The notes below the pieces were generated by a model. That model was not told the origin of the DNA and ran no database searches. It saw only the letters and a list, made by a program, of their open reading frames with translations. DNA of 64,000 bases from Stieleria neptunia. GTDB taxonomy: Bacteria; Planctomycetota; Planctomycetia; Pirellulales; Pirellulaceae. Each line of letters starts with the position of its first letter. The first letter of the stretch is position 1. Shown here one piece after another: positions 2 through 15,540 of the stretch. Both the position numbers and the translations under genes were made by a program. The stretch lies in the NCBI RefSeq assembly GCF_007754155.1, contig NZ_CP037423.1, forward strand, positions 3,658,001 through 3,722,000, given 5' to 3'.

Positions 2-859
2 GGCGGTTCGGTCGAGTTGGCGCAGGCTCTGTGGCGCGTTCGCAACGATCGCAGCGACGAGGAGGTGAAGGAGTTTGTCTCCAAGTTGCGTGTGTATGCG
101 TGGGGACATCAAGATGCGACCGGCCTTTGGATTCAGGAGAATTTTCCCGATCTGGTCTATCTCGTTTCGACGGGCGGAGTGATCTATTCTGCTCCGCCGG
201 AACTGCATAGCGCCCAGTGGCTCAACGAACACGTTCGCTTCAACCACGGAGCACTCGGCACCATTTGCCCGCTGCGTCACGGCAAGTTGGGCGGTGCCGA
301 CACAGAAACGTATCTCGGACTGATCCCGAACGGCTTGAGCAACATGGAGCATCCCGACTGGGGTGGTTGGGGCGGACGGCTTCGCAAAGCAAAGGGTTCG
401 GAGAAACAATGGATCGACGTTCCATCGAACATTCTCCCGAATCGGCTGGGGCACACGATCAGCCGCTGGGCACCGCACTTTCAAAACGATTACCAAGCTC
501 GCATGGATTGGTGCGTGAAAGAGTTCGCCGAAGCCAATCATCCGCCAAGCCCCGTACTCAATGGCGACAAGTCACTTTGTGCCATCGAAGTCACCGCTAA
601 GCCGGGCGAACACGTCATGCTCGACGCCACCGGCACCACGGACATCGACGGAGATTCGCTCTCGTATCGCTGGCAGACTTATCCCGAAGCCGGAAGCTAC
701 CAAGGGCAGGTGGAAATCGAAAACATGGATCAGGCGACGACCAAATGCGTGGTGCCCAAGGACGCGGCGGGAAAGACAGTGCACGTGTTGCTCGTGGTTT
801 CCGACGATGGAACTCCGACGCTGACTCGCTACCGTCGTCTTGTCGTCACCTGCCAATAG
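2..859 (+). CDS. Sde182-like (DUF1593) nucleoside-hydrolase-like protein, 5' end cut off
   Basis: The reading frame is open to the left edge of the window. Its first codons give GGSVELAQALWRVR, which lines up with the WGG...AQA.WKVR segment inside the other Sde182 domains of this locus, so the N-terminus (signal peptide and the Asp-rich metal-site motif) lies outside. What remains is the second half of the nucleoside-hydrolase-like domain ([37 protein letters not shown]) followed by an Ig/cadherin-like C-terminal domain (TDIDGDSLSYRW, TRYRRLVV). The family is secreted, and one member was described as cellulose-binding. True enzymatic activity is not known to me. It is the first visible gene of the sugar locus and lies 25 nt before the epimerase gene. 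Confidence 0.85.
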   Translation, partial: GGSVELAQALWRVRNDRSDEEVKEFVSKLRVYAWGHQDATGLWIQENFPDLVYLVSTGGVIYSAPPELHSAQWLNEHVRFNHGALGTICPLRHGKLGGADTETYLGLIPNGLSNMEHPDWGGWGGRLRKAKGSEKQWIDVPSNILPNRLGHTISRWAPHFQNDYQARMDWCVKEFAEANHPPSPVLNGDKSLCAIEVTAKPGEHVMLDATGTTDIDGDSLSYRWQTYPEAGSYQGQVEIENMDQATTKCVVPKDAAGKTVHVLLVVSDDGTPTLTRYRRLVVTCQ

Positions 860-884
860 TTTGTTTTAGTATTGGAAATACTCA

Positions 885-1772
885 ATGCGTGTTTTGTTCA
901 CTGGCGGTTCTGGAAAAGCTGGGCGTCACGTCGTCACTCACCTCGTCGCGCAAGGTCACCGAGTCCTCAACCTGGATCTTGTTCCGTCGGGGATCGAAGG
1001 CTCGTTTGACATGACGGCGGACTTGACCGACGCCGGATCGATCTTCTCGGCACTCACGGGAATCACCGGCTTCGACGATCTCGATCGTGGAGAAGGGGTG
1101 CCCAAGTTCGACGCCGTCGTTCACTTTGCTGCGATCCCTCGAATCCAGCTTCGCCCCGATCCGGAGTGTTACCGCATCAACACCGCGTCTACGTACAACG
1201 TGTTGGAAGCGGCCGTGAAGCTGGGCGTGCCCAAGATTCTGTTCGCGTCTTCGGAAACCACCTACGCCGTTTGCTTTGCCGACGGCGTCGTGAAGCCGGA
1301 GTACATCCCGGTGGATGAGGAGCATCCGACGATTCCTCATGATGCCTATGCGATGTCGAAAGTTTGCAATGAAATTTGCGGTCGGTCGTTTCACGCGCGG
1401 TCAGGCAGCGACATTTACGCGCTGCGGATCAACAACGTCATCGAACCGCATGAATACGCGGAACTCGCGCCGCAGTGGAAAAGCGATGCGAGCTGTCGAC
1501 GCCGCAACATCTTTGCCTACATCGACACGCGTGACCTCAGCCACTTTGTCGACCGAGCGTTGGCAACCGACGGACTCGGCTATCAGGTTTTCAACGTCGC
1601 CAACGCAGATTCATCCGTAGGCTTACCCAGCGCGGAAGTGATCGCCGAGTTTTATCCGGACGTTCGCAAGACCCGCGAGTTGGGCGAGTTTGAAACGTTT
1701 TACTCTATCGACAAAGCCCGCGACATGCTCGGCTTTCATCCAAAATCGCGTTGGCGGGAAATCGTGAGATAG
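885..1772 (+). CDS. NAD-dependent epimerase/dehydratase (extended SDR)
   Basis: A 295-residue extended short-chain dehydrogenase. The N-terminal Rossmann motif TGGSGKAG (residues 6-13) and the catalytic pair Tyr155/Lys159 in YAMSK are both visible. The segment DAVVHFAAIPR is typical of UDP-sugar epimerases and uronate dehydrogenases. It probably oxidises or epimerises a sugar or nucleotide sugar in the cytoplasm; the exact substrate cannot be read from sequence. The ATG at 885 is the only start that preserves the N-terminal beta strand (MRVLFTGG). Position inside the Sde182/Rbs locus suggests a role in handling imported sugar. Confidence 0.85.
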   Translation: MRVLFTGGSGKAGRHVVTHLVAQGHRVLNLDLVPSGIEGSFDMTADLTDAGSIFSALTGITGFDDLDRGEGVPKFDAVVHFAAIPRIQLRPDPECYRINTASTYNVLEAAVKLGVPKILFASSETTYAVCFADGVVKPEYIPVDEEHPTIPHDAYAMSKVCNEICGRSFHARSGSDIYALRINNVIEPHEYAELAPQWKSDASCRRRNIFAYIDTRDLSHFVDRALATDGLGYQVFNVANADSSVGLPSAEVIAEFYPDVRKTRELGEFETFYSIDKARDMLGFHPKSRWREIVR

Positions 1773-1786
1773 GCTTCCAGCCTGTC
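1769..1786. repeat. Family A repeat, single arm
   Basis: The stretch ATAGGCTTCCAGCCTGTC overlaps the stop codon of the epimerase gene. It equals one arm of the inverted repeat at 63928-63982 and resembles the arms between the rbs genes. Only one arm is seen here. Confidence 0.6.
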
Positions 1787-1868
1787 GTCAACCAAATGTT
1801 GAAACAAATGGCTCTCGCACCAACGAAAGCTCCAGCACATCAACCAAAGTCAAACAATTAGGCGAAAC

Positions 1869-2858
1869 ATGATCCCCCCACTTCCAGCGACCTTCCGCTC
1901 AGCGACCTTCCGCGCACTCGTGCTGCTCGCGGTTTTCAACCTGCCAAGCTTCACCTCTCACAGCATGGCTCAGGAAACAAACTCTATTGAGCAATGGGAC
2001 GTTTACGAGATCACACTCAAGGGGTCGTCGGCAGGAAACCCCTATCTGGAAACATCGCTTTCGGTCGAGTTCTCCAACGACTCGAAAACTGTCACGGTTC
2101 CCGGGTTCTACGACGGCGATGGCGTTTACAAGGTCCGTTTTTCTCCTGATCAAAAGGGGACTTGGAAGTACGTAACCAAGAGTGATCAAGACGGGCTGAG
2201 TGGAAAGAGCGGCTCGGTGCTCTGTGTTGCACCAACGGGGAATAACCACGGACCCGTCCGAGTCGTCAACACGCACTACCTCGAGTATGCCACTCCTGTT
2301 CGACGAAATGCGTTACGAGGGTGACGTTTCCTCCAGTTGGGGAAACATGAATGCCAAAGAAATGACCAGCTATTTTTGGAAGGCGGCTTAAGTGGCGGCT
2401 ACGGAACGCACGGCGATACATTCAAGAATGATTCGGACGACGAAACCGAAGTTCGCTGGTGGGCAAAAGGCGGAACGTTACCGGGAAAGAGTCCTGATAG
2501 GATTGCTTTCTTCAAGAAGATCATGGAAGAGGCGCCGGTGTTTGAAATGACGCCCCGTTTGGTGAAACTCAGTTCGCGTCCGGTGCCAGCAGACATTCCG
2601 GATCGCATCGACCGCAAGATCATCGATGATCTCAACAACAACATTTACGTGTTCAGCAAAGACGGCGAGCACTACCTCGCCTACACTCAGGACGCGGGTC
2701 GAACGATCGAATTGGAACTCACGGGCGACAAAGAATACGCGTTGCAAGTCATCGACACTTGGAACATGAAAGTCGTCGCCGAGAAGACCGTTCCGGCTGG
2801 AAACTTTCAGCACAAGACAGAAATGCCGTTCACTGCCATTCGTGCGATTGCGAAATGA
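1869..2858 (+). pseudogene. Decayed DUF5060/DUF4038-type glycosidase gene (internal deletion plus frameshift)
   Basis: The ATG at 1869 opens a protein with a signal peptide (cleavage near SMAQ) and a DUF5060 beta-sandwich (EQWDVYEITLKG, GFYDGDGVYKVRFSPDQKGTW) that runs to HYLEYA. In intact relatives a TIM-barrel DUF4038 domain follows. Here the next recognisable sequence, FDEMRYEGDVSSSWGN...MTSYFWKAA, is the far end of that barrel and lies in another frame from about 2290. A one-base shift at about 2390 then moves to the frame of LSGGYGTHGDTF, RWWAKGGTLPGKSP and a C-terminal DUF5605-like sandwich ending at 2858. So a central piece of probably 200 or more codons is missing and two frame breaks occur. 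The gene is very unlikely to make a working glycosidase, though the 151-residue secreted DUF5060 fragment could still be translated. Confidence 0.8.
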
Positions 2859-3136
2859 AGCATCGCCCCGTGGTCCAGCCAACCAGTATTCACCCCCTTT
2901 CGACGATCAGCAGCCTCGGCCAAAAGGCAGCCCATCGTCAAATCTTCAAGAACCTTAGAATACCGTGAGTGCCGTCCTGCAAGCAGGGAGAGTCCCTGCA
3001 GAAAGCAGTGTATTTTGAGCCCATCGAAGAGCAGTTCACGGCTGCTGAAGAGAGTTTAGGCGGCCAGCGAAGCGACTTCTCCCAAAGTCTGATTGCCAGT
3101 TTCACCACCGAAGTCACATCACCGGAAACAAGACGA

Positions 3137-6100
3137 ATGCATCTACAACGTATCTACGCGGCTTTCTTGATCACGATGGTGGCCAGTGTCGCTATCGCTC
3201 AGGAAGACCAATCGCAGCGAGATCCCTACGAAAAGCCACGCATCATCACGACGACGGACCTTGGTGCTGACCCCGATGATGAACAGTCATTGGTACGCCT
3301 GTTGGTGAGTGCCAACGAATTCGATATGGAAGGCCTCATTGTCTCGACGGGTTGCTGGAAGAAAAGCCAAGGCGACACAAAGATGCTCGACAAGCTTGTT
3401 GATGCGTATGGCGAGTGTGTCGGCAACTTGAAGGTGCACGCCGATGGTTTCCCGTCAGTCGATTACCTGAGAAAGATCTCAGTGATGGGCCAGCGGGGCT
3501 ATGGCATGAGCGACGTTGGCGATGGAAAAGACAGTCCGGGTTCGGACTTGATCATCGCCTCAGTGGACAAGGACGATCCGCGGCCTGTTTGGATTGGCGG
3601 CTGGGGAGGAACGAACAATGTCGCTCAGGCGATTTGGAAAGTTCGCGCCACGCGTTCCAAAGCAGAACTTGATAAGTTCTTGTCGAAGATCCGTGTGTTT
3701 GACATCCTTGGTCAGGATGACGCCGGAGCCTGGATCGCGAAGAACTATCCCGAAGTCCTCTACATTCGGGCAACTGGAGTTTACGGTTGGCAGCCACCGA
3801 AAAATGGTGACTATCAGCGCAACGACATTCAAAGCCATGGTCCGTTGGGCGCGCTCTATCCGGACACAAAATGGGCGACCGAAGGCGACACGCCCGCGTT
3901 CATGCATGTCTACCCGAACGGTCTTAACGATCCGGACCAGATTGACCAAGGCGGTTGGGGAGGACGTTTCAGCTGGAAGAAAAAGACCAGCATCAAGAGC
4001 ATGCGAGCCGTGAAGGGGGAAGAACGGCAGTACGATCCGTACGACATGTACGGCAACACGTCCGACGGCGCAAAAGCGATCAAACGCTGGAGCAAGGGCT
4101 ACGACAACGACTTCGCCGCACGGATGGATTGGAGCATCACCAGCAAGTACGAGGATGCCAACCACCATCCGATCGCCGTCCTCAATGGCGATACGTCACG
4201 TCGAGTCATGAACGTCTCGGCCGCTCCGGGTTCAACCGTTTCACTGAGTGCGAAAGGCTCCAGCGACCCCGACAAGAATGCGTTGACTTACGCGTGGTCG
4301 TTCTACCAAGACCCAAGTTCTTACGACGGCGATTTAAAACTGAACGGTTACGATTCGGAATCCGTCAAGATCTCGGTTCCGGCGGACGCCGCCGGGAAAA
4401 ACATGCACATCATCCTGGAAGTCCACGACGACGGCGAACCAAATCTGTACGCCTATCGCCGCATGATAGTCAATGTGGACGGCGAGTCGCCGGCGGCTTC
4501 GACGGCAACTCCGGCATCGCCCCCCGCGAAGAAACAGATGGTCGCCGGGAAACCAGCGTCTTCCATGAAGACATGGCTGAAGAACTATATCGCAGACACC
4601 TATCCCGATGCGGAACTGGAGGATCACGGCGGATGGCTCCAGGCTCATGTCGGCGATCTCGTTGTCAGCTGGGCCGAGTGGAACGAAGCGGGCGTCACGC
4701 TGAAAGAATTGGAGGCTCATGCTCTGAAAGATGGAAGATCGATCTTCATCTCCAAAGACGAAAAGCAAGATTGGATCCTCCTTCCCGGAGTCGACTACTT
4801 GAAGGACGCGGGCTATTTCGTCAAATCGTACTTGTCAGCCAGCATGTCGGCTTGGAACGTCGAAGGCAGCACCGTCATTCAGTTCGACGGCGACGCGAAG
4901 GAGTTTAGCCAGAAACTGGCTGCGGCATGGAGCGGTGCCGCGAGCAAGAAACCTGCAGCGCCGGCTGCGAAGCCAGACCGTGACTTCAACACGTGGTTGA
5001 AGGAATACATTCCGGCCAACTACGCCGAGGCGAAGATCGACGACCATGGCGGATGGACTCAGGCACATGTTCCGAATCTCGTTGCCAGTTGGGCGTTGTG
5101 GAACGAATCGGGCATTACTTTGAAGGAAGTGCACGATGTTGAAGAAGGCGAGTCGCTGTTCATTTCCAAGAACAAAAATGAAGACTGGCCCGAAAGCGAT
5201 CAAGTGAAGTACTTCGACGGTGCCGGCTACTACGTCACTGGATATTCGGCTGCGACGATGGCCGACTGGGATGTTGAAGGCAGCACCGTGGTCCAGTTCG
5301 ATGGCGACTCCAAAGCATTTGCTGAGAAGGCTGCTGTATCGTTTAGCGGACCGAAACAACCGAAAGAGCAGAAGACTTCCTCGAAACCATTCAAGCGACT
5401 CCGAGTCGTCATGACGACCGACTTCCCTCCCATCGGTGTCGTGAAGGGTGGCAACGTGCCCAACGACCAAAAGAGCGATCCCGACGACATGCAATCGATC
5501 GTTCGCTTCTTGTTGTACGCCAATGAATTCGATGTGGAGGGCTTGGTCGTTTCGTCGGGAACATTCGCCAACAAGGCGACGAAAAAGAACATGCTGGATG
5601 TCATCGACCGCTACGAGCAGGTCTATCCAAACTTAAAGAAACATGATTCGATGTTTCCCTCGCCCGCTTATTTGCGGAGCGTTACCTTTGAAGGCCGCAG
5701 CGGCACTTGGGGCAAAAAGGGAACGACCAACATTGGTGAAGGCAAAGACAGTGAAGCTTCCGATGCCTTGATCGCGATCGTCGACAAGCCGGATCCACGC
5801 CCGGTCTACGTCGGTATTTGGGGCGATTGCAGTGTGGTCGCGCAGGCCGTTTGGAAAGTTCAGCAGACGCGTAGCAAATCGGAACTGGATCAATTCCTCA
5901 GCAAGTTACGCATCCATCAGATTGCGACTCAGGACGGCACCATTACCTGGTTGCGAGACAATTTTCCTAAGCTGTTCATTATCCATTCACACAAGACGTA
6001 TCAAGGAATGTTCGGCGGCGGTGATCCGAATTCTGATCTCGCCTGGGTGAATCGACATATCCGAAATGATCACGGGCCGCTGTGCAGCATCTACCCGCAT

Positions 6101-6343
6101 GAAGGCATGGGATGCATCGGGGTTTGTGAAGGCGACTCGCCCGCGTTTCTGTGGCTGGTCAGCGCAAACCGAGGGTTGAACGATCCCGACGACCCGACCC
6201 AGGAAAGCTGGGGCGGTCAGTTCAAGCGGGACGGTGACAAGAATCACTTCATCGACGGTCCAGGACGTTCAAGCATTTCAAAATGGCGCAAGGATTTTCA
6301 AAAGGAGTTCGCAGAGCGAGCGGATTGGTGTGTTCGTGATTGA
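3137..6343 (+). CDS. Secreted double Sde182/DUF1593 protein with duplicated spacer domain
   Basis: Starting at the ATG at 3137, the product is 1068 residues with a signal peptide (MHLQRIYAAFL...AIAQ). An in-frame GTG at 2969 would add 56 unlikely residues. Order of parts: a first nucleoside-hydrolase-like domain from residue 33 with the Asp cluster TTDLGADPDDEQS; its Ig-like partner domain to about 455; two copies of a roughly 115-residue unit starting near 475 (MKTWLKNYI) and 614 (FNTWLKEYI); and a second nucleoside-hydrolase-like domain from 753 (MTTDF...SDPDDMQS) that ends at the stop without its own Ig-like domain. In true nucleoside hydrolases the equivalent acidic cluster binds calcium and ribose, so activity on a glycoside is plausible but unproven. 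It was likely made by fusion of two paralogues. Confidence 0.85.
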   Translation: MHLQRIYAAFLITMVASVAIAQEDQSQRDPYEKPRIITTTDLGADPDDEQSLVRLLVSANEFDMEGLIVSTGCWKKSQGDTKMLDKLVDAYGECVGNLKVHADGFPSVDYLRKISVMGQRGYGMSDVGDGKDSPGSDLIIASVDKDDPRPVWIGGWGGTNNVAQAIWKVRATRSKAELDKFLSKIRVFDILGQDDAGAWIAKNYPEVLYIRATGVYGWQPPKNGDYQRNDIQSHGPLGALYPDTKWATEGDTPAFMHVYPNGLNDPDQIDQGGWGGRFSWKKKTSIKSMRAVKGEERQYDPYDMYGNTSDGAKAIKRWSKGYDNDFAARMDWSITSKYEDANHHPIAVLNGDTSRRVMNVSAAPGSTVSLSAKGSSDPDKNALTYAWSFYQDPSSYDGDLKLNGYDSESVKISVPADAAGKNMHIILEVHDDGEPNLYAYRRMIVNVDGESPAASTATPASPPAKKQMVAGKPASSMKTWLKNYIADTYPDAELEDHGGWLQAHVGDLVVSWAEWNEAGVTLKELEAHALKDGRSIFISKDEKQDWILLPGVDYLKDAGYFVKSYLSASMSAWNVEGSTVIQFDGDAKEFSQKLAAAWSGAASKKPAAPAAKPDRDFNTWLKEYIPANYAEAKIDDHGGWTQAHVPNLVASWALWNESGITLKEVHDVEEGESLFISKNKNEDWPESDQVKYFDGAGYYVTGYSAATMADWDVEGSTVVQFDGDSKAFAEKAAVSFSGPKQPKEQKTSSKPFKRLRVVMTTDFPPIGVVKGGNVPNDQKSDPDDMQSIVRFLLYANEFDVEGLVVSSGTFANKATKKNMLDVIDRYEQVYPNLKKHDSMFPSPAYLRSVTFEGRSGTWGKKGTTNIGEGKDSEASDALIAIVDKPDPRPVYVGIWGDCSVVAQAVWKVQQTRSKSELDQFLSKLRIHQIATQDGTITWLRDNFPKLFIIHSHKTYQGMFGGGDPNSDLAWVNRHIRNDHGPLCSIYPHEGMGCIGVCEGDSPAFLWLVSANRGLNDPDDPTQESWGGQFKRDGDKNHFIDGPGRSSISKWRKDFQKEFAERADWCVRD

Positions 6344-6360
6344 CGTGTTCGCAAATAACG

Positions 6361-6462
6361 TGGGGTAGGCATCCAGCTTGCCTTTTTCCACTGAATCTAC
6401 CACCGTCTTCGCAAGCTGGAAGCTTACACCACGTTTCGCAAGCTGGAAGCTTACGCCACCCA
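6361..6462. repeat. Family A palindromic repeat between Sde182 and ribokinase genes
   Basis: One forward arm (GTGGGGTAGGCATCCAGCTTGC) is followed by two copies of the inverted arm (GCAAGCTGGAAGCTTAC) at about 6411 and 6439. Transcribed, the arms can pair into a long hairpin. This lies just upstream of the ribokinase ribosome site and could act as an mRNA processing or stabilising element; function is inferred only from position. Confidence 0.7.
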
Positions 6463-6474
6463 GAGGAAAACTGC

Positions 6475-7416
6475 ATGAAACAATCTCGAATATGTGTCGT
6501 TGGATCGGCGAATATCGACCTGACGTTTCGGACGCCACGTTTGCCACAACCAGGCGAAACTCTGGCCGGCCACGCATTGCATCAGGGGATGGGCGGCAAA
6601 GGGGCCAACCAGGCCGTCGCAGCAGCAAGGCTGGGCGCGTCGGTCGCGTTCATCGCTCGTGTGGGTAACGATGCCTTCGGTAAATCAGCCATCGAAGCCT
6701 ATCAAGCAGAAAATATTCAAACGTCATGCATTCGGCAGTCGGTCGATCAACCAACGGGAACGGCCGCGATCATGGTTGATGACAATGCAGAAAATTGCAT
6801 CATCGTCGTTGCGGGAGCGAACGCCGAGCTGAACGCTGAAGATGTGAAGGGCGCGTCGTCGCTGATGACAAATTCCCAAGTCGTACTTTGTCAATTGGAA
6901 ACACCGGTCGACGCGGCCGTAGAAGCGTTCCGCATTGCCCGCGCGGCAAACGTCCTGACGGTCCTCACGCCCGCGCCGGCCGAACGCGTCACCGCAGAAT
7001 TGCTTTCGCTCTGTGATGTTTGTGTTCCCAACAAGACCGAGATTACGGCGATGACCGGCCAGACCATTGAGACCGAAGCGGATGCGCTACGTGCGGCAGA
7101 ACGACTTCGCGACCGTGGCGTAAAACGAGTTGCTTTGACGATGGGCGGTGACGGCGTATTTGTCGTGGACGAAACCGGATCGACTCATATTCCCGCCGTC
7201 AGAGTAAAAGCGGTGGATACCACCGGCGCGGGTGATGCGTTTACCGCGGCACTCGCGGTTTCGCTGGCTGAAGGAATGTCTTTCGTCGAGTCTGCCCGTC
7301 GCGCGAGTGCGGTTGCAGCGATTTCAGTGACTCGCATCGGAACGCAAACTGCATTTCCGACGATGAGCGAAGTCAACCAATTATCCCGGTTGGAGGAAAA
7401 CGTATGCGAAGCGTGA
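6475..7416 (+). CDS. rbsK: Ribokinase (PfkB family)
   Basis: A 313-residue cytoplasmic sugar kinase that would phosphorylate ribose to ribose 5-phosphate. Both PfkB signatures are present: [17 protein letters not shown] near residues 39-55 and the catalytic DTTGAGDAF near residue 248, with Asp as the base. The ATG at 6475 follows a good ribosome site (AGAGGAAA) and begins [15 protein letters not shown], the classic ribokinase start. Its end overlaps the next gene by 13 nt, suggesting translational coupling with the Sde182 protein. Related family members act on other sugars, but the rbs neighbours favour ribose. Confidence 0.92.
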
Positions 7417-8822
7417 TCACTTTTCTGATTCTCATTTCCGCGTTTCTGAGTATTTCGACTGCTGCTGACAAGCCGCGGATCTTTGTGCTCACCGACATTG
7501 AAAACGAGCCTGACGACGCGATGTCGATGGTGCGGTTTCTGACCTATGCCAATCACTTTGAGATCGAAGGCTTGGCGGCCACGACGTCGATCCATCAACA
7601 AAATCGAATCGCACCGGAACGGATTCGCCGCATTGTCGAAGCCTATGGCAAAGTACGCGACAACCTAGCGAAGCACGAAAAAGGATATCCGACCGTAGAG
7701 GATTTGTTGCAGAAAGTCACCGAAGGCATTCCGGTCTATGGGATGAACGGCGTGGGCGAAGGAAAGGATTCGCCTGCATCGGAGATGCTAATTAAGGCGG
7801 CCGACAGAGACGACCCGCGACCAATGTGGGTTACAGCATGGGGCGGTCCTAACGTGCTGGCTCAGGCGTTGTGGAAAGTTCGCGAAACGCGATCGTCCGC
7901 AGAACTGCAAAAGTTCGTAGCGAAACTGCGTGTCTATACGATCTCTGACCAAGATGACAGCGGACCGTGGCTGCGCGAACAATTCCCTGAACTGTTCTAC
8001 GTCGCGAGCCCTGGGTTTCACGCCGGCGGTGGCTATCACCATGCGACGTGGAGCGGCATCAGCGGCGACTACTTTCACGCTCGATTTTCGGGAGCGGATT
8101 TCCAACTGGTTTCAAACGAATGGCTGGACAAGAACGTTCGGCAAAAGGGGCCGCTCGGTGCGGAGTATCCACACTGGGAATACTTGATGGAGGGCGATAC
8201 ACCATCGTTCTTGAATCTGATTGACAATGGCTTGAGCGATCCCGAACGTCCGGATTGGGGCGGCTGGGGAGGACGCTACGAACACTACACGCCACGCAAA
8301 CAAAAGTGGCATCTGCAGGCAGAAACGCGACCGTTTTGGACGAACGCCGAAGACGAAGTGTTAGGCATCGACAACCGCTGGCATTCCGGCAATCACGCGA
8401 CGATCTGGCGTTGGCGTTTTGCTTACCAAAACGATTTCGCTGCCCGAATGGACTGGACGATTAAGGCTTACGACGAAGCCAATCATCCGCCCGTACCAAA
8501 ACTTGGACACGCTGACCGACTGACTGCAAAGCCGGGTGAGACAGTCCAACTCAGTGCCGAAGGTTCCAGCGATCCCGACGGCGATGCGTTATCCTATGAA
8601 TGGTTCTACTATGGCGAAGCCGGCACTTTACTGACTTCCTCCGGGACTTCAGGTCAACCGGTGCCGATTGAGGATTTTGACCAAGTCAAGGCATCCTTTG
8701 TCGTTCCGACGAAACGCGTCATGCCCGGCGTCGGGACGATGCACATCATTCTTGCAGTGACCGACCACGGCCAACCTCGTTTGACGCGATACCGGCGGGT
8801 CGTCGTCGATGTGAAAAACTGA
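7404..8822 (+). CDS. Secreted Sde182-like (DUF1593) nucleoside-hydrolase-like protein
   Basis: A complete 472-residue family member. It has a signal peptide ([15 protein letters not shown]...TAA), the acidic motif [14 protein letters not shown] at residues 28-40, [29 protein letters not shown], and [18 protein letters not shown]. After these comes the Ig-like C-terminal domain ([24 protein letters not shown]). It overlaps the ribokinase gene by 13 nt, so a periplasmic or secreted protein and a cytoplasmic ribokinase are made from coupled reading frames. This is the strongest contextual hint that the family releases the sugar that RbsK phosphorylates. Catalysis is not demonstrated by the sequence alone. 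Confidence 0.9.
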
Positions 8823-8850
8823 ATTTCTAATTTTACTCAGGAGAATGGAA

Positions 8851-10059
8851 GTGACGAATTCAACAACGTTGCAAAACCCGGAAACAGCCATGGCCCAGAC
8901 ACCCCCTCAAACCGTCTGGGCGGTTGCAATGACCGCGCCGGGCCAGACCGAGATGCGGTCGTATCCGTATCCGACAATGGATCACGATTCGGCGATCTTG
9001 AAAGTTGAGATGTCGGGTATCTGTGGAACCGATCGGCACATCTTCAAAGGTGAAGCGAAGGAGCTACGAGGCAAGTCGATCTACCCGTATGTCGGCGGTC
9101 ACGAGGTGATCGGAACGATCGTGGAGATCGGAGACAAGGCGGCGCGGACCATGGACTACGACGGTCAGCTGCTCGCTCCTGGCGATCGGGTGGCCATTGC
9201 CGTCGAAGTCAATTGCGGCGACTGCTGGTATTGCAGGAATCACTACAACAATTGTACCTGCGAGAATCAGATTCAGGCTTATGGGCTGCATCCGAATTGC
9301 GAAACCAAGCCATATTTGCGTGGCGGGTTCGCAGAGTACATGTACATTCGGCCGCGAACGCATTTGTTCAAGATTCCTGAAGAAATGCCAACCGATGTAG
9401 CCGTGTTCGTCGAAGAGATGGCCGTGGCTTATCATTCGCTGGCTCGTGCGTCGGCTGCGTTCGCTCCAGTGAACGAGGGCTTCGGTCCGGGAATGTCGGT
9501 CGCAGTGTTGGGCAACGGGCCTTTGGGGCTGCTGCACGGTATCATGGCAGAGATCCAGGGGGCAGGGTTGTCGATCGCCACGGATCTCTCTGACCTTCGT
9601 CTTGGCAAGGCAAAGAATCTTTATGCCGACGTGACGATGAACGCTGCAACGGTAGGAGTCGAAGAACGCATTGATCGGGCAAAAGAGTTGACCGAAGGCG
9701 TCGGACCGGACCTGGTCATCGAATCAAGCGGCGAACCGGAAGTCTTTCTCGAGGCATTGAGGATGGTTCGCAAAGGCGGAACGGTCATCGAAGTGGGCAA
9801 CTGGGTCGACCTTGGAAAGAACGTGCCACTGGATGTCATGAAGCATATCGCATCGAAGAACCTGCATATCCACTCCGTCTTTCACTGTGGAACCAACTGG
9901 CGCCCGGTCCTGAAAGTCTTGCAACAGCAAGCCGGCCGGTATGATTTTCCATCGATGATCACGCACCGCATGAGTCTTGATGAGTTAGTGGACGGATTCG
10001 GCACGGTGACGAAGTTTGACGAATGCGTCAAAATCGAAGTCGTACCGCACAAAGCCTAG
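8851..10059 (+). CDS. Zinc-binding alcohol/polyol dehydrogenase (MDR family)
   Basis: A medium-chain dehydrogenase of about 402 residues. It shows the catalytic zinc ligand region (SGICGTDRHIFKGE), the GHEVIGTIVEIG motif, and a cysteine-rich structural zinc lobe (NCGDCWYCRNHYNNCTCEN). The Rossmann motif follows as AVLGNGPLGLL. Likely role: NAD(P)-linked oxidation of a sugar or polyol in the same catabolic route. Start choice: AGGAG at 8839-8843 is only 1 nt from the ATG at 8845 but 7 nt from the GTG at 8851, so the GTG is preferred; the ATG at 8890 is a third option. Confidence 0.88.
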   Translation: MTNSTTLQNPETAMAQTPPQTVWAVAMTAPGQTEMRSYPYPTMDHDSAILKVEMSGICGTDRHIFKGEAKELRGKSIYPYVGGHEVIGTIVEIGDKAARTMDYDGQLLAPGDRVAIAVEVNCGDCWYCRNHYNNCTCENQIQAYGLHPNCETKPYLRGGFAEYMYIRPRTHLFKIPEEMPTDVAVFVEEMAVAYHSLARASAAFAPVNEGFGPGMSVAVLGNGPLGLLHGIMAEIQGAGLSIATDLSDLRLGKAKNLYADVTMNAATVGVEERIDRAKELTEGVGPDLVIESSGEPEVFLEALRMVRKGGTVIEVGNWVDLGKNVPLDVMKHIASKNLHIHSVFHCGTNWRPVLKVLQQQAGRYDFPSMITHRMSLDELVDGFGTVTKFDECVKIEVVPHKA

Positions 10060-10060
10060 C

Positions 10061-10121
10061 GGCATAAGCTTCCAGCTTGCGATCTTGTTGCAGTGCCTGG
10101 CAAGCAGGGTGCTTACCCCAC
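10061..10121. repeat. Family A palindromic repeat between dehydrogenase and rbsD
   Basis: The forward arm GGCATAAGCTTCCAGCTTGC begins just after the stop codon of the dehydrogenase gene. A diverged inverted arm (GGCAAGCAGGGTGCTTACCCCAC) ends 10 nt before the rbsD start. Confidence 0.65.
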
Positions 10122-10131
10122 GGAATTCTCC

Positions 10132-10539
10132 ATGAAACGAACGAGACTACTCAACAGCGAACTCAGCTACGAGATCAGCCGCATCGGACACACGGCGTCG
10201 ATCACGTTGTGCGACGCCGGTCTGCCGATCCCGTCTGAAGTCAAGCGGATCGATCTGGCGATCGAACGCGGGTATCCTTCGTTTCTCAAGACGCTGGACG
10301 TTTTGTTAAGCGAAATGCAGGTGGAAGAGATGGTGGTCGCCAGTGAGATTCACGAACACAATCCTGAAATCCTAAAGGGCATGATGGACTTGTTTCGTCA
10401 TCATGAAATGAACCCCATCGTCACAGAAGTCTCGCATCAGGAGTTCAAGCAAATGACGCGGCAAAGTGAAGCAATCGTTCGCACGGGCGAATGCACTCCA
10501 TACGCAAATGTTATCCTCAAGTCGGGCGTCGTCTTTTGA
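10132..10539 (+). CDS. rbsD: D-ribose pyranase
   Basis: A 135-residue protein matching RbsD closely in length and motifs: KRTRLLNSELSYEISRIGHTASI with the conserved His in GHT, CDAGLPIPSEVKRIDLA, EMQVEEMVVASEI, and the C-terminal GECTPYANVILKSGV. RbsD interconverts pyranose and furanose forms of ribose so that ribokinase receives its substrate. Its presence together with rbsK and rbsABC argues that ribose, rather than another pentose, is the transported sugar. The start is the ATG at 10132; upstream in-frame codons lie in the repeat. FucU mutarotases share the fold, but this sequence looks RbsD-like. Confidence 0.93.
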   Translation: MKRTRLLNSELSYEISRIGHTASITLCDAGLPIPSEVKRIDLAIERGYPSFLKTLDVLLSEMQVEEMVVASEIHEHNPEILKGMMDLFRHHEMNPIVTEVSHQEFKQMTRQSEAIVRTGECTPYANVILKSGVVF

Positions 10540-10549
10540 TCCTATTTCA

Positions 10550-10616
10550 AGTGGCGTAAGCTTCCAGCTTGCGTTTTATTTAGTGTTATGATCGGCAAGC
10601 TGGTAGCTTGCCCCAC
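10550..10616. repeat. Family A palindromic repeat between rbsD and rbsB
   Basis: GTGGCGTAAGCTTCCAGCTTGC at 10550 and its near-complement GGCAAGCTGGTAGCTTGCCCCAC ending at 10616 form a two-arm hairpin about 67 nt long. It sits 18 nt before the binding-protein gene, where a processing or stability element could set transcript ratios. Confidence 0.7.
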
Positions 10617-10634
10617 TTTACCAAGGCGAATCCT

Positions 10635-11624
10635 ATGAAACGAAACGCACTCATTCAGTCAACGATTATTCCGTTCGCCTGCCTGCTACTTCTCACCTCT
10701 GCCGGTTGCAGCAGCCAACCAGCCAGCAATGAGTCGTCGTCGGCCGAGGCTGATGAGCCAAAGAAAATCGCCGTGATCGTTTCGACGTTGAACAATCCGT
10801 GGTTCGTCGTCCTGGGAGAAACGGCACGCGACCGAGCCGATGAACTTGGCTATGAAGCCAACATGTTCGATTCGCAGAATGACACGGCCAAAGAGGCGGA
10901 GCATTTTGATAACGTCATTGCCGCCGGCTACTCGGCCATCCTTTTCAACCCAACCGATGCGGACGGTTCGATTGCCAATGTCAAACGAGCAACGGAAGCT
11001 GGGATTCCGGTCTTTTGTATCGACCGCGAAATCAACTCGACCGACGCCGCGACGACTCAATTGTTGTCCGACAACTATTCCGGATGCGTCGAACTTGGCA
11101 AGTACTTCGTGGAGAAAGTCGGTGAAAAGGGGAAGTACGTTGAACTCCTGGGGCTGGTCGGAGACAACAACACGTGGAACCGCTCCAAGGGGTTCCATCG
11201 TGTCGTCGATCGGTATGAAGGGTTGGAAATGGTCGCCCAACAAAGTGCAGACTTTGATCGCAACAAAGCCCTGGAGGTCATGGAGTCCATTTTGCAGTCA
11301 CACGGCGATCTCAATGCCGTCTTCTGTGGGAATGACGCGATGGCAATGGGCGCGTATCAGGCATTGCTGGCAGCCGACAAAGCCGACCAGGTCAAAGTGT
11401 TTGGCTACGACGGATCGGAAGACGTCATCAAGTCGATCAGCGAAGGCAAGATTGCTGCGACCGTGATGCAGTACCCCAAGGTCATGGCCAAAGCATCGGC
11501 CGAATACGCTCACGAGTACCTCGCCAACGGCAAACGCGATTTTGAGCAGAAAATTCCTGTTGGCGTTGACCTGGTTTCGCAAGAGAACATCGACGACTTC
11601 ATTGGTTACGGGAAAAAGGAGTAG
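10635..11624 (+). CDS. rbsB: Sugar ABC transporter substrate-binding lipoprotein (RbsB-like)
   Basis: 329 residues. The N-terminus is a lipoprotein signal (MKRNALIQ...LLLLTSAGC, lipid-bearing Cys25) followed by a Ser-rich linker. The mature part is a type I periplasmic binding fold: [60 protein letters not shown] and [14 protein letters not shown] are all typical of RbsB/XylF relatives. It would capture the sugar at the outer face of the inner membrane for RbsAC. It ends 2 nt before the DUF2291 gene start. Confidence 0.92.
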
Positions 11625-11626
11625 CC

Positions 11627-12331
11627 GTGTTGCGAACGAGGATGATCAAATGCGGGTTGTCGTTGATTGTCGTTTGCCTCGTCTGCTGGCTCTTTCCACT
11701 CTTTCATGTCCAAACGTTGGGCCAAGGAAAGACGGAAGACAGCGATGCGGCCACGATGGCAGATGAAACGGGTCCATCTGATCCAGTCGCTTATGTGCGC
11801 GAGCTTTGGGACGGATCACTAAGAACCGCAGACGCTGCCACAACCATCACTCAACTCTGGGATGCCTTCGATGCCGACGCAACGGTTGCGAGAAGCCAAT
11901 ATGGCCAACAGGCAGGTCTTGGTGGAGCGTGGTATTTTTGTGTCCGTGGGCAGGGCACCGTCCAGGTCGTCGAGAAGGACCGTGTTGTTCTCGCGGTCGC
12001 GGAGAGTTCGCGACGCGTTTGTCTCGATCTCGGCGTCGTCGTCGACAACACGGTTCGGGAAGCGATCGGTGTAAAGGCCAGTGACTTCGCGAACTCCCAA
12101 GCATTCAATGCGGTCTCGACGGAACTCAATCTTCGAGTCGAAAAAGAGGTGATCACTGAGAAACGGGCGTTTTTGAAAAAAGACGTGATCGTCGATTTCG
12201 TCGGCTGTACAAAGATTGGTGGCAAGTCAGACCTTGATCCATTGTGCCTGATTCCGATTCAAATTCATATTCTTGGCGGTGAAGCCGGCGGCCCTGATTT
12301 GAACAAGGAGACGGCCGGAGCAAAGCCATGA
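11627..12331 (+). CDS. DUF2291 family periplasmic protein
   Basis: 234 residues starting at a GTG, with AAAAAGGA upstream. A hydrophobic N-terminal segment (residues 9-25) gives a signal peptide or anchor. The body carries the DUF2291 pattern: AYVRELWDGSL near the start, QYGQQAGLGGAWYFCVRGQGTV in the middle, and the late segment RVCLDLGVVVDNTVREAIG...SDFANSQAFNAVSTELN. DUF2291 genes usually sit inside sugar ABC transporter operons, as here, but their role is unknown; an accessory to the binding protein or permease is a guess. It overlaps rbsA by 4 nt (ATGA). Confidence 0.75.
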   Translation: MLRTRMIKCGLSLIVVCLVCWLFPLFHVQTLGQGKTEDSDAATMADETGPSDPVAYVRELWDGSLRTADAATTITQLWDAFDADATVARSQYGQQAGLGGAWYFCVRGQGTVQVVEKDRVVLAVAESSRRVCLDLGVVVDNTVREAIGVKASDFANSQAFNAVSTELNLRVEKEVITEKRAFLKKDVIVDFVGCTKIGGKSDLDPLCLIPIQIHILGGEAGGPDLNKETAGAKP

Positions 12332-13899
12332 TCCAAGCCGCGGCAAACAGCGACGTCGTGCTGACGGGCCGGGGAATCGTCAAGCGATATCCCGGCGTGT
12401 TGGCGCTCGACCAAGTCAACTTTGAAGTGCGACGTGGAGAAGTTCACGGCTTGATCGGCGAAAACGGCGCTGGGAAATCCACGCTCATGCATATTCTGGC
12501 GGGAGCCAATCGCGCCGATGAAGGTGTGATCCAGCTGGAGGGTGCGCCCGTTGAATTCGCCAATCCGCGTGAAGCATCGGATCACGGTATCGCGCTGGTG
12601 CATCAGGAATTGAACCTCGTTCCGCACCTCTCGGTCGCGGAAAACATTTTTCTCGGTCGCGAACTTGTCTCCCGTGTCGGTCTGATTCGTTCGCGGGATC
12701 AAAACGAGCAGTGCCGTCGATTGCTGGCCGACCTGGATGAGACGATCGATCCTCGCGCGGAGATTCATTCGTTGCGAGTCGGGCAGCAACAGGTCGTTGA
12801 AATTGCCAAGGCGATCAATTCCAAGGCACGCGTGATTTTCATGGACGAGCCGACGTCGGCGATCAGCGATCAAGAAGTCGAGTCGTTATTCCGTCTGATC
12901 CGTTCGCTTCGGGATTCAGGCGTCTCCATCGTCTACGTGTCCCACAAACTGGAAGAACTGCTGAACATCAGCGACCGCATTACCGTCTTGCGTGATGGCC
13001 AACTGGTGGAGACAGTGGAGGCCGCCGACGCCGATCGGGATTCGATCGTGCGGCTGATGGTTGGTCGGAAGCTCGATGATTTGTACGTTCATTCGCCCGC
13101 ATTGGCCAACCGGCCTGAGCGGCTGCGCGTGGAATCATTGACCCTGGATCGCAAGGACACGAGCCGTCCGTTGATTGACGGCGTTTCGTTTTCTGTACGT
13201 GGCGGCGAAGTCTTTGGCATCTTCGGATTGATGGGGGCTGGACGTACGGAGTTGCTCGAATCGATCTTTGGCCTTCATCCAAATCGTACGACAGGTGACA
13301 TTGCAATCGATGGCGTCAGCTGCCGATTTCGATCGCCTCAACAGGCATTGAAGCATGGCCTGGGGCTTGTTCCCGAAGACCGCAAACACCAGGGACTCAT
13401 CCTGGGGATGAGCGTGGAACAAAACATCAGCCTGTCAAACCTCTCCGAGATGGAATCTGCAGGGTTGCTAAGCGGACGGCGTGAACGAGACCACGCCCAA
13501 TCGTTCGTCGAGCAATTCTCGATTCGGACACCCAACGTGATGCAGCCCGTGCGCGCCTTAAGCGGGGGCAATCAGCAAAAGGTTGTCCTGTCGAAAGTGC
13601 TTTCGAGAAAACCAAGTGTTCTGATGCTGGACGAGCCGACGCGTGGCATTGACGTGAGCGCAAAACGAGAAATCTATGGACTGATCGACCGGCTCAAGCG
13701 ACAGGGGATAGCGATCGTCGTCGTTTCGTCTGAACTGCCGGAACTGCTGGGCATCGCCGATCGAATCATGGTGATGAGCGAGGGCCGCAAGACCGGCGAA
13801 TTCGAGAGGTCCGCGGCGAATGAAGAGGTGTTGATGCGCGCCGCAGTGCCTCAAACAACTGCAGCTGCGGAAACAGCCCAGAGCGAACCCGTCGAATGA
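12328..13899 (+). CDS. rbsA: Sugar ABC transporter ATP-binding protein (RbsA-like)
   Basis: 523 residues with two fused ABC domains, as in ribose/xylose importers. Domain one has Walker A GENGAGKST, the signature region LRVGQQQVVEIAKAI and Walker B VIFMDEPTSAI. Domain two has the family's usual degenerate Walker A (GLMGAGRTE), the signature LSGGNQQKVVLSKVL and Walker B VLMLDEPTRGID. It energises uptake of the sugar delivered by the RbsB-like lipoprotein. The start overlaps the DUF2291 stop (ATGA at 12328), and rbsC follows 27 nt after the stop. Confidence 0.95.
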   Translation: MIQAAANSDVVLTGRGIVKRYPGVLALDQVNFEVRRGEVHGLIGENGAGKSTLMHILAGANRADEGVIQLEGAPVEFANPREASDHGIALVHQELNLVPHLSVAENIFLGRELVSRVGLIRSRDQNEQCRRLLADLDETIDPRAEIHSLRVGQQQVVEIAKAINSKARVIFMDEPTSAISDQEVESLFRLIRSLRDSGVSIVYVSHKLEELLNISDRITVLRDGQLVETVEAADADRDSIVRLMVGRKLDDLYVHSPALANRPERLRVESLTLDRKDTSRPLIDGVSFSVRGGEVFGIFGLMGAGRTELLESIFGLHPNRTTGDIAIDGVSCRFRSPQQALKHGLGLVPEDRKHQGLILGMSVEQNISLSNLSEMESAGLLSGRRERDHAQSFVEQFSIRTPNVMQPVRALSGGNQQKVVLSKVLSRKPSVLMLDEPTRGIDVSAKREIYGLIDRLKRQGIAIVVVSSELPELLGIADRIMVMSEGRKTGEFERSAANEEVLMRAAVPQTTAAAETAQSEPVE

Positions 13900-13926
13900 A
13901 TTCAAACAACTTGGCAATCATCGAAC

Positions 13927-14904
13927 ATGCGTGACCCATCACAATTCTGGAAGCAGTTAGGCCGCTTTCAGTCGCTACTCGTCCTGGTCCTCATGATCGT
14001 TGCGATGAGTCTGTTGTCGGATCGCTTTCTGACTTCCGCAAACGGTTTGAATATCATGCGGCAGATTTCTGTCAACGTTTGTCTGGCGATTGGCATGACC
14101 ATGGTGATTCTGTCCGGCGGGATCGATCTTTCTGTGGGATCGGTGCTCGCGTTTTCGGGCGCGATCACGGCGGGTTTGATGAAGACGGCAGTTCCGCTGC
14201 CCTGGCTGGGAGTCGAGCTGCAGTTCACGACATGGGGAGCGATCGTCGCCGGATTAACGGCCGGTTCGTTTCTCGGCTGGTTCAACGGACAGATGATCAC
14301 CCGGCTGAAGATCCCGCCCTTTGTTGCGACACTTGGGATGCTCAGTATCGCGCGCGGCATGACGATGCTCTGGACCAAGGGGTTTCCGATTACCGGCCTG
14401 GGCGACGGATTCGCGATCCTTGGAACGCGTTCGGTGCTGGGGATTCCGATGCCCGTATGGATCGCCGGATGTCTGGTCGCTGTGTTTGTCTTGCTCACAA
14501 AGAAGACTCGGGTGGGGCGGTACACTTATGCCGTCGGAGGCAACGAACAGACCGCCCGATTGTCCGGGCTGAATGTGAATCGCATCAAGGTCATCGTTTA
14601 CACGATCGCGGGCGGTTTATCCGCAGTGGCTGGGCTGATCATGACCTCGCGACTGGACTCCGCCCAACCCAACGCGGGAGCGGGATATGAATTGGACAGC
14701 ATTGCCGCAGTCGTCATTGGAGGAACGTCACTTTCCGGCGGTCGCGGAACCATCCTCGGAACCGTCATCGGTTGCCTGATCATCGGAGTGCTCAACAGCG
14801 GATTGGTGCTGTTGAATGTTTCGCCCTTCTGGCAACAAGTCGTCAAAGGCGGTGTGATTCTATCTGCAGTCGCGATCGATCGCATGCGCGAATCCAACGA
14901 TTGA
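13927..14904 (+). CDS. rbsC: Sugar ABC transporter permease (RbsC-like)
   Basis: 325 residues, strongly hydrophobic, with about 8-10 predicted membrane spans. Family motifs include MTMVILSGGIDLSVGSVLAFSG, ATLGMLSIARGMTMLWTKG, YAVGGNEQTARLSGLNV and SIAAVVIGGTSLSGGRGTILGT. It forms the inner-membrane channel with RbsA. It is the last gene of the locus; no clear terminator hairpin was seen directly behind it. Confidence 0.95.
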   Translation: MRDPSQFWKQLGRFQSLLVLVLMIVAMSLLSDRFLTSANGLNIMRQISVNVCLAIGMTMVILSGGIDLSVGSVLAFSGAITAGLMKTAVPLPWLGVELQFTTWGAIVAGLTAGSFLGWFNGQMITRLKIPPFVATLGMLSIARGMTMLWTKGFPITGLGDGFAILGTRSVLGIPMPVWIAGCLVAVFVLLTKKTRVGRYTYAVGGNEQTARLSGLNVNRIKVIVYTIAGGLSAVAGLIMTSRLDSAQPNAGAGYELDSIAAVVIGGTSLSGGRGTILGTVIGCLIIGVLNSGLVLLNVSPFWQQVVKGGVILSAVAIDRMRESND

Positions 14905-15458: not shown

Positions 15459-15465
15459 CGGGTAG

Positions 15466-15540
15466 TCGGGATGACAAGATTCGAACTTGCGACCTCTGCA
15501 CCCCCAGTGCAGCGCTCTAACCAGGCTGAGCCACATCCCG
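15466..15540 (-). tRNA. tRNA-Pro (anticodon GGG)
   Basis: On the minus strand a 75-nt cloverleaf can be drawn. The acceptor stem is CGGGATG with CATCCCG, discriminator A. The D arm is GCTC/GAGC. The anticodon stem CTGCA/TGCAG encloses the loop CTGGGGG, which puts GGG at positions 34-36. The T arm GCAAG/CTTGT carries TTCGAAT (one G-T pair). CCA is not encoded. A terminator hairpin follows directly. Confidence 0.95.

Follow-up and report, generated by a model that had tools for sequence, protein, structure and literature searches.

The window analysed here, 64,000 nucleotides of Stieleria neptunia contig NZ_CP037423.1 (positions below count from the first letter of the window), opens with a plus-strand gene cluster, 2–14,904, that combines secreted Sde182 proteins (DUF1593; Pfam PF07632) with an importer, a kinase and a pyranase of the ribose (Rbs) type. 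The original prediction described three Sde182 genes with four hydrolase-like domains on one strand with RbsK/D/B/A/C, and open reading frames (ORFs) together with Pfam and NCBIfam models confirmed this arrangement, with all three genes passing the PF07632 gathering cut-off of 26.8 bits. The overlap of the 7404 gene with the ribokinase gene is exactly 13 nucleotides, as predicted (7404–7416). Fetched loci are denoted L and genomes G; L007 is the own-genome stretch that reaches upstream of the window. The features, all on the plus strand, are as follows.

2–859, +: 3′ part of a secreted Sde182 nucleoside-hydrolase-like protein with an Sde0182_C domain (PF07632, 109.1 bits); the gene starts upstream (L007 14378–15859)
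885–1772, +: NAD-dependent epimerase/dehydratase family protein (PF01370, 74.3 bits)
1869–2858, +: decayed gene with a broken frame (DUF5060 piece, 1869–2324; DUF5605 piece, 2337–2858)
2969–6343, +: two-domain Sde182 protein, 1,124 amino acids as called (PF07632 twice, 538.9 bits)
6340–7416, +: ribokinase RbsK (TIGR02152, 367.5 bits, cut-off 299.65; best PDB match the ribokinase 2fv7)
7404–8822, +: secreted Sde182 nucleoside-hydrolase-like protein of 472 amino acids, the 7404 product (PF07632, 382.4 bits)
7494–7517, +: codons of D31, D37 and D38, a candidate calcium/sugar-diol site
8196–8198, +: codon of D265, candidate counterpart of the last calcium-binding Asp of nucleoside hydrolases
8845–10059, +: Zn-dependent alcohol dehydrogenase (ADH) family protein (PF08240, PF00107; best PDB match 1vj0)
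10093–10539, +: RbsD, D-ribose pyranase family (PRK11797, 181.3 bits, cut-off 93)
10608–11624, +: RbsB-type sugar-binding protein with a lipobox-like start, judged by eye (PF13407; best PDB match 2fn8)
11627–12331, +: DUF2291 protein (PF10054, 102.8 bits)
12328–13899, +: RbsA-type ATP-binding cassette ATPase (PF00005 twice)
13927–14904, +: RbsC-type permease (PF02653)

The cluster begins outside the window, with a further PF07632 gene immediately upstream (L007 13380–14321), and a Pel9A-like gene lies upstream of the cluster on the opposite strand (L007 11717–13090). Five of the six PF07632 domains of the genome are at this cluster and one is at 9.97 Mb. The decayed gene has lost an apiosidase-type catalytic domain from between its DUF5060 and DUF5605 ends; intact homologs with the order DUF5060, PF13204 Apiosidase and DUF5605 adjoin Sde182 genes in L100 and L102. 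The original prediction lacked the decayed gene, the DUF2291 gene, the extra upstream Sde182 gene and the Pel9A-like gene.

Sde182 proteins and the nucleoside-hydrolase fold

We found that the 7404 product is predicted to adopt the nucleoside-hydrolase fold and that the Asp cluster noticed earlier is real: when family members found in the fetched loci were aligned, all 153 ungapped rows had D31, D37 and D38, and all 155 rows had D265. The 7404 product shares family and fold with Sde_0182 of Saccharophagus degradans (PDB 2YHG, PF07632), to which it is 37–42% identical. In a profile search of the PDB, 2yhg was the sole convincing match, so that it is structure that ties the family to nucleoside hydrolases. 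A relative of the 7404 product at 87% occurs in Rubripirellula reticaptiva, and Paraglaciecola hydrolytica and Arenibacter have paralogs. The nucleoside hydrolases themselves (IUNH/RihA/RihB, PF01156) are only about 9–18% identical to the 7404 product, and PF01156 was not among the families that it matched at E values up to 0.001. Unlike them, the 7404 product has a signal peptide, recognized by eye, and a PKD-like C-terminal domain; Sde182 proteins mostly consist of one PF07632 domain and a beta domain at the C terminus, and a cluster encodes several paralogs. In nucleoside hydrolases, a His before the last Asp serves as leaving-group acid, whereas Sde182 proteins apparently carry an invariant glycine there (Gly264, directly before D265), as judged from a forced and weak hhalign pairing.

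The PF07632 family has had a solved structure since 2011 and comprises at least 8,000 relatives, and we found no assigned activity for it in the literature searched. Among titles and the first parts of abstracts, outside subscription journals and CAZy, none connected PF07632 with apiose or ribose. A 2022 review assigns no activity to Sde_0182, reports its nucleoside-hydrolase domain to be inactive on purine and pyrimidine nucleosides and considers a possible furanose-interacting module (PMC8910321). This inactivity fits a furanosidase with a leaving group other than a base. It disfavours a nucleosidase acting on external nucleosides and speaks against the ribosyl substrate as the original prediction had stated it.

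Neighbourhoods of Sde182 genes and their likeness to D-apiose clusters

Scanning one genome per species (84,980 species) with the clade of the 7404 product returned 115 relatives, of which the best 80 loci were kept. Gene calls in these loci are longest ORFs, so neighbour counts are lower bounds, and the name of each family comes from a single member or a few; an ORF of the Sde182 cluster was present in 75 of 83 loci, L163 having been chosen for RbsD and the other loci for Sde182. PF07632 is patchily distributed, occurring in 25 of 60 sampled genomes of the family to which S. neptunia belongs and, across the phylum, in 11 of 149, of which 8 exceed the cut-off. Matches to Rbs-type A, B or C proteins were found in 31 of the 80 Sde182 loci, a count that leaves out L105, L106, L139 and L145 and is based on at most eight hits listed per locus; by clustering, 32 of the 80 loci have an Rbs gene, two of them (L105 and L106) on matches of 30–32%. 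Among the 48 loci with at least 20 kb, an Rbs gene is present in 26, a split transketolase in 21 and at least one of the two in 28. The co-occurrence beyond its own genome on which the original prediction had staked itself thus exists, as the linkage to Rbs-type genes recurs in Planctomycetota, Bacteroidota, Verrucomicrobiota, Pseudomonadota and Spirochaetota. Together with the predicted fold and the invariant Asp set, this recurrence makes the idea of release and uptake well founded.

The choice of RbsK and RbsD as general partners of Sde182, by contrast, did not hold. We examined 44 genomes, those of the 80 loci with about 20 kb of sequence, which are not independent of one another. RbsD-family genes occur in 21 of them and lie beside Sde182 in 3 (L077, L080 and L093), all Pirellulaceae; the L077 cluster has RbsK as a remnant of 44 amino acids, no RbsK was found in the L080 cluster, and both clusters keep RbsD, ADH and the importer. 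The 60-genome family sample has eight high-scoring RbsD places (more than 130 bits) in seven genomes, two of them near PF07632 (S. neptunia itself and G192). DUF2291 is present as a single copy in 34 of the 44 genomes: inside the Sde182 locus in 24 (once at the locus edge), about 10–15 kb off in five more and elsewhere in five (L085, L090, at 26 kb if this is one contig, L111, L147 and L156). We estimate that well under one such proximity would be expected at random, taking 30 kb in genomes of 3.6–11.4 Mb and bearing in mind that these are non-independent. Distances between DUF2291, AptA and Sde182 genes were read by eye, and L099 and L138 may each involve separate contigs.

Other neighbours recur at Sde182 loci, namely a split transketolase, a Fucose_iso_C isomerase, a GlpK-type FGGY kinase and DeoR regulators and, on the pectin side, PF13204 apiosidase-type enzymes, PF09492 pectate lyases, GH28, GH88 and GH127. 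Apiosidase-type genes are found in 14 and pectin-type genes in 34 of the 80 loci, and pectin queries had no match in five RbsD loci without Sde182 (L164–L168), a small set. Also near Sde182 genes are a BT_1020-like propeller, a GH141 insertion domain and rhamnosidases, types of enzyme with roles in rhamnogalacturonan II (RG-II). The GH140-type PF13204 apiosidases, such as BT1012 of RG-II, would share the job suggested here for Sde182 but belong to a different domain family, and it is the window's own copy of this type that has decayed.

The cytoplasmic genes resemble those for D-apiose. E. coli SE15 genes ECSF_RS02670–02715 have been reported as a cluster for D-apiose, a sugar on which E. coli and E. 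fergusonii strains with the cluster were shown to grow (PMC13001218, which also cites such a cluster in Pectobacterium). The SE15 cluster has an RbsBAC-type importer with DUF2291, as in the window; the SE15 substrate-binding protein is annotated as ribose-binding, and no Sde182 gene is among the ten genes of the cluster. Among the neighbour families, SE15 AptA has 18 matches (median 48%), AptB 20 (41%) and AplK 14 (37%), AptA or AptB types occur in 22 of the 80, and an AptA-type split transketolase is present in 32 of the 44 genomes, plus one at 47%; these apt-type Sde182 clusters hold relatives of AptA, AptB and AplK, as the SE15 cluster does. In a tree of 39 split transketolases, SE15 AptA groups with L134 inside a clade of all 18 cluster-6 proteins used and the Bythopirellula one (96/97), apart from 19 other split transketolases that come from the same genomes, which strengthens the AptA assignment. 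SE15 AptA scores 228–271 bits against this clade and 150–227 against the others. SE15 AplK is closest to the GlpK model yet stays below its cut-off (495.3 versus 590.35). Three of the 80 loci encode proteins related to OiaX and OiaK, which belong to the apionate pathway. In Botrimarina (L213 2911–14483), matches to OiaK, OiaX, RbsC, RbsA, RbsB, a kinase, AptB, AptA and an isomerase form one run.

The RbsD/ADH clusters of Pirellulaceae

Where the SE15 cluster has AptAB and AplK, the window cluster has RbsD, ADH and RbsK. It shares homologs of RbsD, RbsA, RbsC, RbsB and RbsK with the ribose operon, whose order is rbsDACBK, and adds DUF2291, the Zn-ADH and the secreted hydrolases. ADH and RbsD are present in S. 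neptunia, L157, L093, L077, L080 and L163. L093 keeps the order Sde182-RbsK-Sde182-ADH-RbsD-RbsB of the window, its second Sde182 being another paralog and the 7404 ortholog following RbsC; L157 keeps the window order with an 81-amino-acid remnant of a 7404-type gene between ADH and RbsK (10631–10873, minus strand); and L089 has Sde182-RbsK-7404 ortholog-ADH. In L219, a 44-amino-acid ribokinase remnant (432–563, minus strand) follows RbsC, so that RbsK seems to have been lost from a cluster that retains ADH, RbsD and the importer. L163 has ADH-RbsD-RbsB-DUF2291-RbsA-RbsC (3258–9254) and no Sde182 match in the 14 kb that the locus covers. Pectin-type enzymes accompany these clusters as well: PL10 in L077 and L080, GH127 in L093 and partly in L157, and a pectate-lyase-like gene in L157.

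No examined genome has both the apt and the RbsD/ADH module at its Sde182 cluster. SE15 AptA, AptB and AplK had no match in the S. neptunia locus, and a search for split AptA in three RbsD-type genomes returned only full-length transketolase at E values up to 1e-30. High-scoring RbsD genes lie away from the cluster in five apt-type genomes (G222, G226, G239, G241 and G243). OiaX matches at 60–65% occur in G233, G244, G197 and G199, planctomycetes with a 7404-type Sde182 gene and no RbsD seen beside it; the match in G157 is at 26%. Window RbsB forms a well-supported clade with RbsB of Bythopirellula, whose genome has a kinase-AptB-AptA-isomerase set at another place (L212).

A proposed route and its alternatives

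We propose, at about an even chance, that Sde182 proteins are secreted furanosidases that mainly release D-apiose from pectin, and that the Rbs importer and a cytoplasmic module then use the sugar. Apiose is 3-C-hydroxymethyl-erythrofuranose and occurs in RG-II and apiogalacturonan (PMC5607165), the RG-II backbone is linked to both long chains via apiose (PMC12282258), and BT1012 of Bacteroides cuts this linkage (PMC7939467). In the order of steps that we infer, Sde182 proteins would act as furanoside hydrolases on the nucleoside-hydrolase fold, in which D31, D37, D38 and D265 would hold a calcium ion that grips the cis-2,3-diol of the furanose and activates water. D-apiose, a furanose with such a diol, would be released from a pectin such as RG-II or apiogalacturonan as the main activity across the family. 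The free sugar would enter through RbsB, DUF2291, RbsA and RbsC. It would be used in the cytoplasm by an isomerase, a GlpK-type kinase and a split AptAB-like transketolase in most linked clusters seen, and by RbsD, Zn-ADH and often RbsK in the Pirellulaceae variant. Of the original prediction, release and uptake are supported, whereas the identification of the sugar as ribose is not, given that elsewhere the linked genes are a split transketolase, a GlpK-type kinase and an isomerase, as in D-apiose catabolism, with pectin-type enzymes near. For the window cluster itself, this comparison suggests apiose rather than, or besides, ribose.

Several observations weigh against apiose, and many of them favour an alternative that we regard as rather unlikely: that in Pirellulaceae the Sde182 proteins act on an external ribosyl compound and free its ribose, that RbsB/A/C, RbsD and RbsK import and use this sugar, and that the apiose link elsewhere stems from sister enzymes of the same fold with another specificity. 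Window RbsK and RbsD pass ribose equivalog cut-offs (TIGR02152 and PRK11797), although RbsK does not reach a second ribokinase model (PRK11142, 305.7 versus 341). Window RbsB is closest in the PDB to the ribose-binding protein of Thermotoga maritima (2fn8) and is only 35.5% identical to the SE15 apiose-binding protein, whose place in the tree is with L134 and L141 and not in the window RbsB clade; window RbsB falls short of the RbsB equivalog NF007936 (236.7 bits versus a cut-off of 337), as does the SE15 protein (149.1 bits). T. maritima has DUF2291 as well as RbsD, so DUF2291 is not apiose-specific. In the S. neptunia genome, the only matches to split AptA are two full-length transketolases, an isomerase query found none in a search without positive control, and OiaX is absent from all five RbsD/ADH-type genomes (G000, G192, G207, G208 and G215) of the 18 genomes searched. 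The order Sde182-RbsK-(Sde182)-ADH also recurs in L093, L157 (with its remnant) and L089. Against ribose stand the decay or apparent absence of RbsK in L077 and L080 while RbsD, ADH and importer stay, the pectin-type enzymes in L077, L080, L093 and L157 (we know of no ribose among the sugars of pectin), and the nucleoside inactivity of Sde_0182 reported in the review (PMC8910321). We also compared the pocket of the binding protein as a possible arbiter between the two sugars. The residues regarded as ribose contacts look common to the window protein, ribose-binding proteins and both 5ibq, which we take to hold apiose, and 4ry0, and the comparison does not decide between them.

Further points count against D-apiose across the family as a whole. 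The pairing of D265 with the nucleoside-hydrolase Asp comes from a forced hhalign profile alignment with an insignificant score; 49 of the 80 loci have no such Rbs match, although 32 of the 80 span less than 20 kb; and the pectin-gene counts stand without a matched control. The OiaX- and OiaK-like proteins are below their NCBI cut-offs (515 and 437 versus 700), and the L097 kinase exceeds the glycerol kinase cut-off (629.1 versus 590.35) and may therefore act on glycerol or dihydroxyacetone. It is improbable, in our view, that Sde182 domains have no catalytic role and instead bind furanose so as to present pectin to other enzymes: the Pfam name 'cellulose-binding' and the hypothesis published for the nucleoside-inactive Sde_0182 (PMC8910321) agree with such a role, but the Asp set is invariant in 153–155 domains, the proteins are mostly built of one Sde182 domain and a C-terminal beta domain, and each cluster has several paralogs. 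We give similarly little credence to cleavage of other pectic furanosides (L-arabinofuranose or aceric acid) with apiose as a bystander, for which the several paralogs per cluster and the GH127 and GH43 neighbours would speak; the linked catabolic and transport genes resemble apiose genes.

Returning to D-apiose release, the evidence favours one sugar with two routes, and the ribose-type RbsK and RbsD, with the closeness of RbsB to the T. maritima protein, mean that Pirellulaceae may have switched to ribose. A more specific version can be put forward only tentatively: PF07632 would be a new calcium-dependent beta-D-apiofuranosidase family and the first branch of the nucleoside-hydrolase fold to degrade pectin, and Pirellulaceae would use apiose by a new RbsD/Zn-ADH/(RbsK) route that replaces AptAB behind the same importer. 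The neighbourhoods point to one substrate class and one sugar for a family for which we found no assigned activity. If this is true, one branch of the nucleoside-hydrolase fold serves to cleave pectin furanosides, apiose is what some importers with a ribose annotation carry, and Pirellulaceae use apiose in an undescribed way.

Some details of the cluster complete its description. None of 19 NCBIfam models matched by the ADH exceeded its own cut-off, and the best PDB match, 1vj0, is a Zn-containing alcohol dehydrogenase; likewise, no NCBIfam model reached its own cut-off for the epimerase/dehydratase protein (885–1772). An ATG near 3137, ahead of a signal-like stretch, is probably a better start for the Sde182 gene called at 2969–6343, and rbsK probably starts at the ATG at 6475. 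The called rbsK start (6340–6475) contains a repeated stretch, SQAGSLHHV/SQAGSLRH, which is probably intergenic. Upstream of the cluster, L007 17–4085 encodes an amidohydrolase/beta-lactamase-fold fusion protein and then a BNR_4 protein, and a tRNA-Pro(ggg) gene follows right after the cluster on the minus strand (15465–15540).

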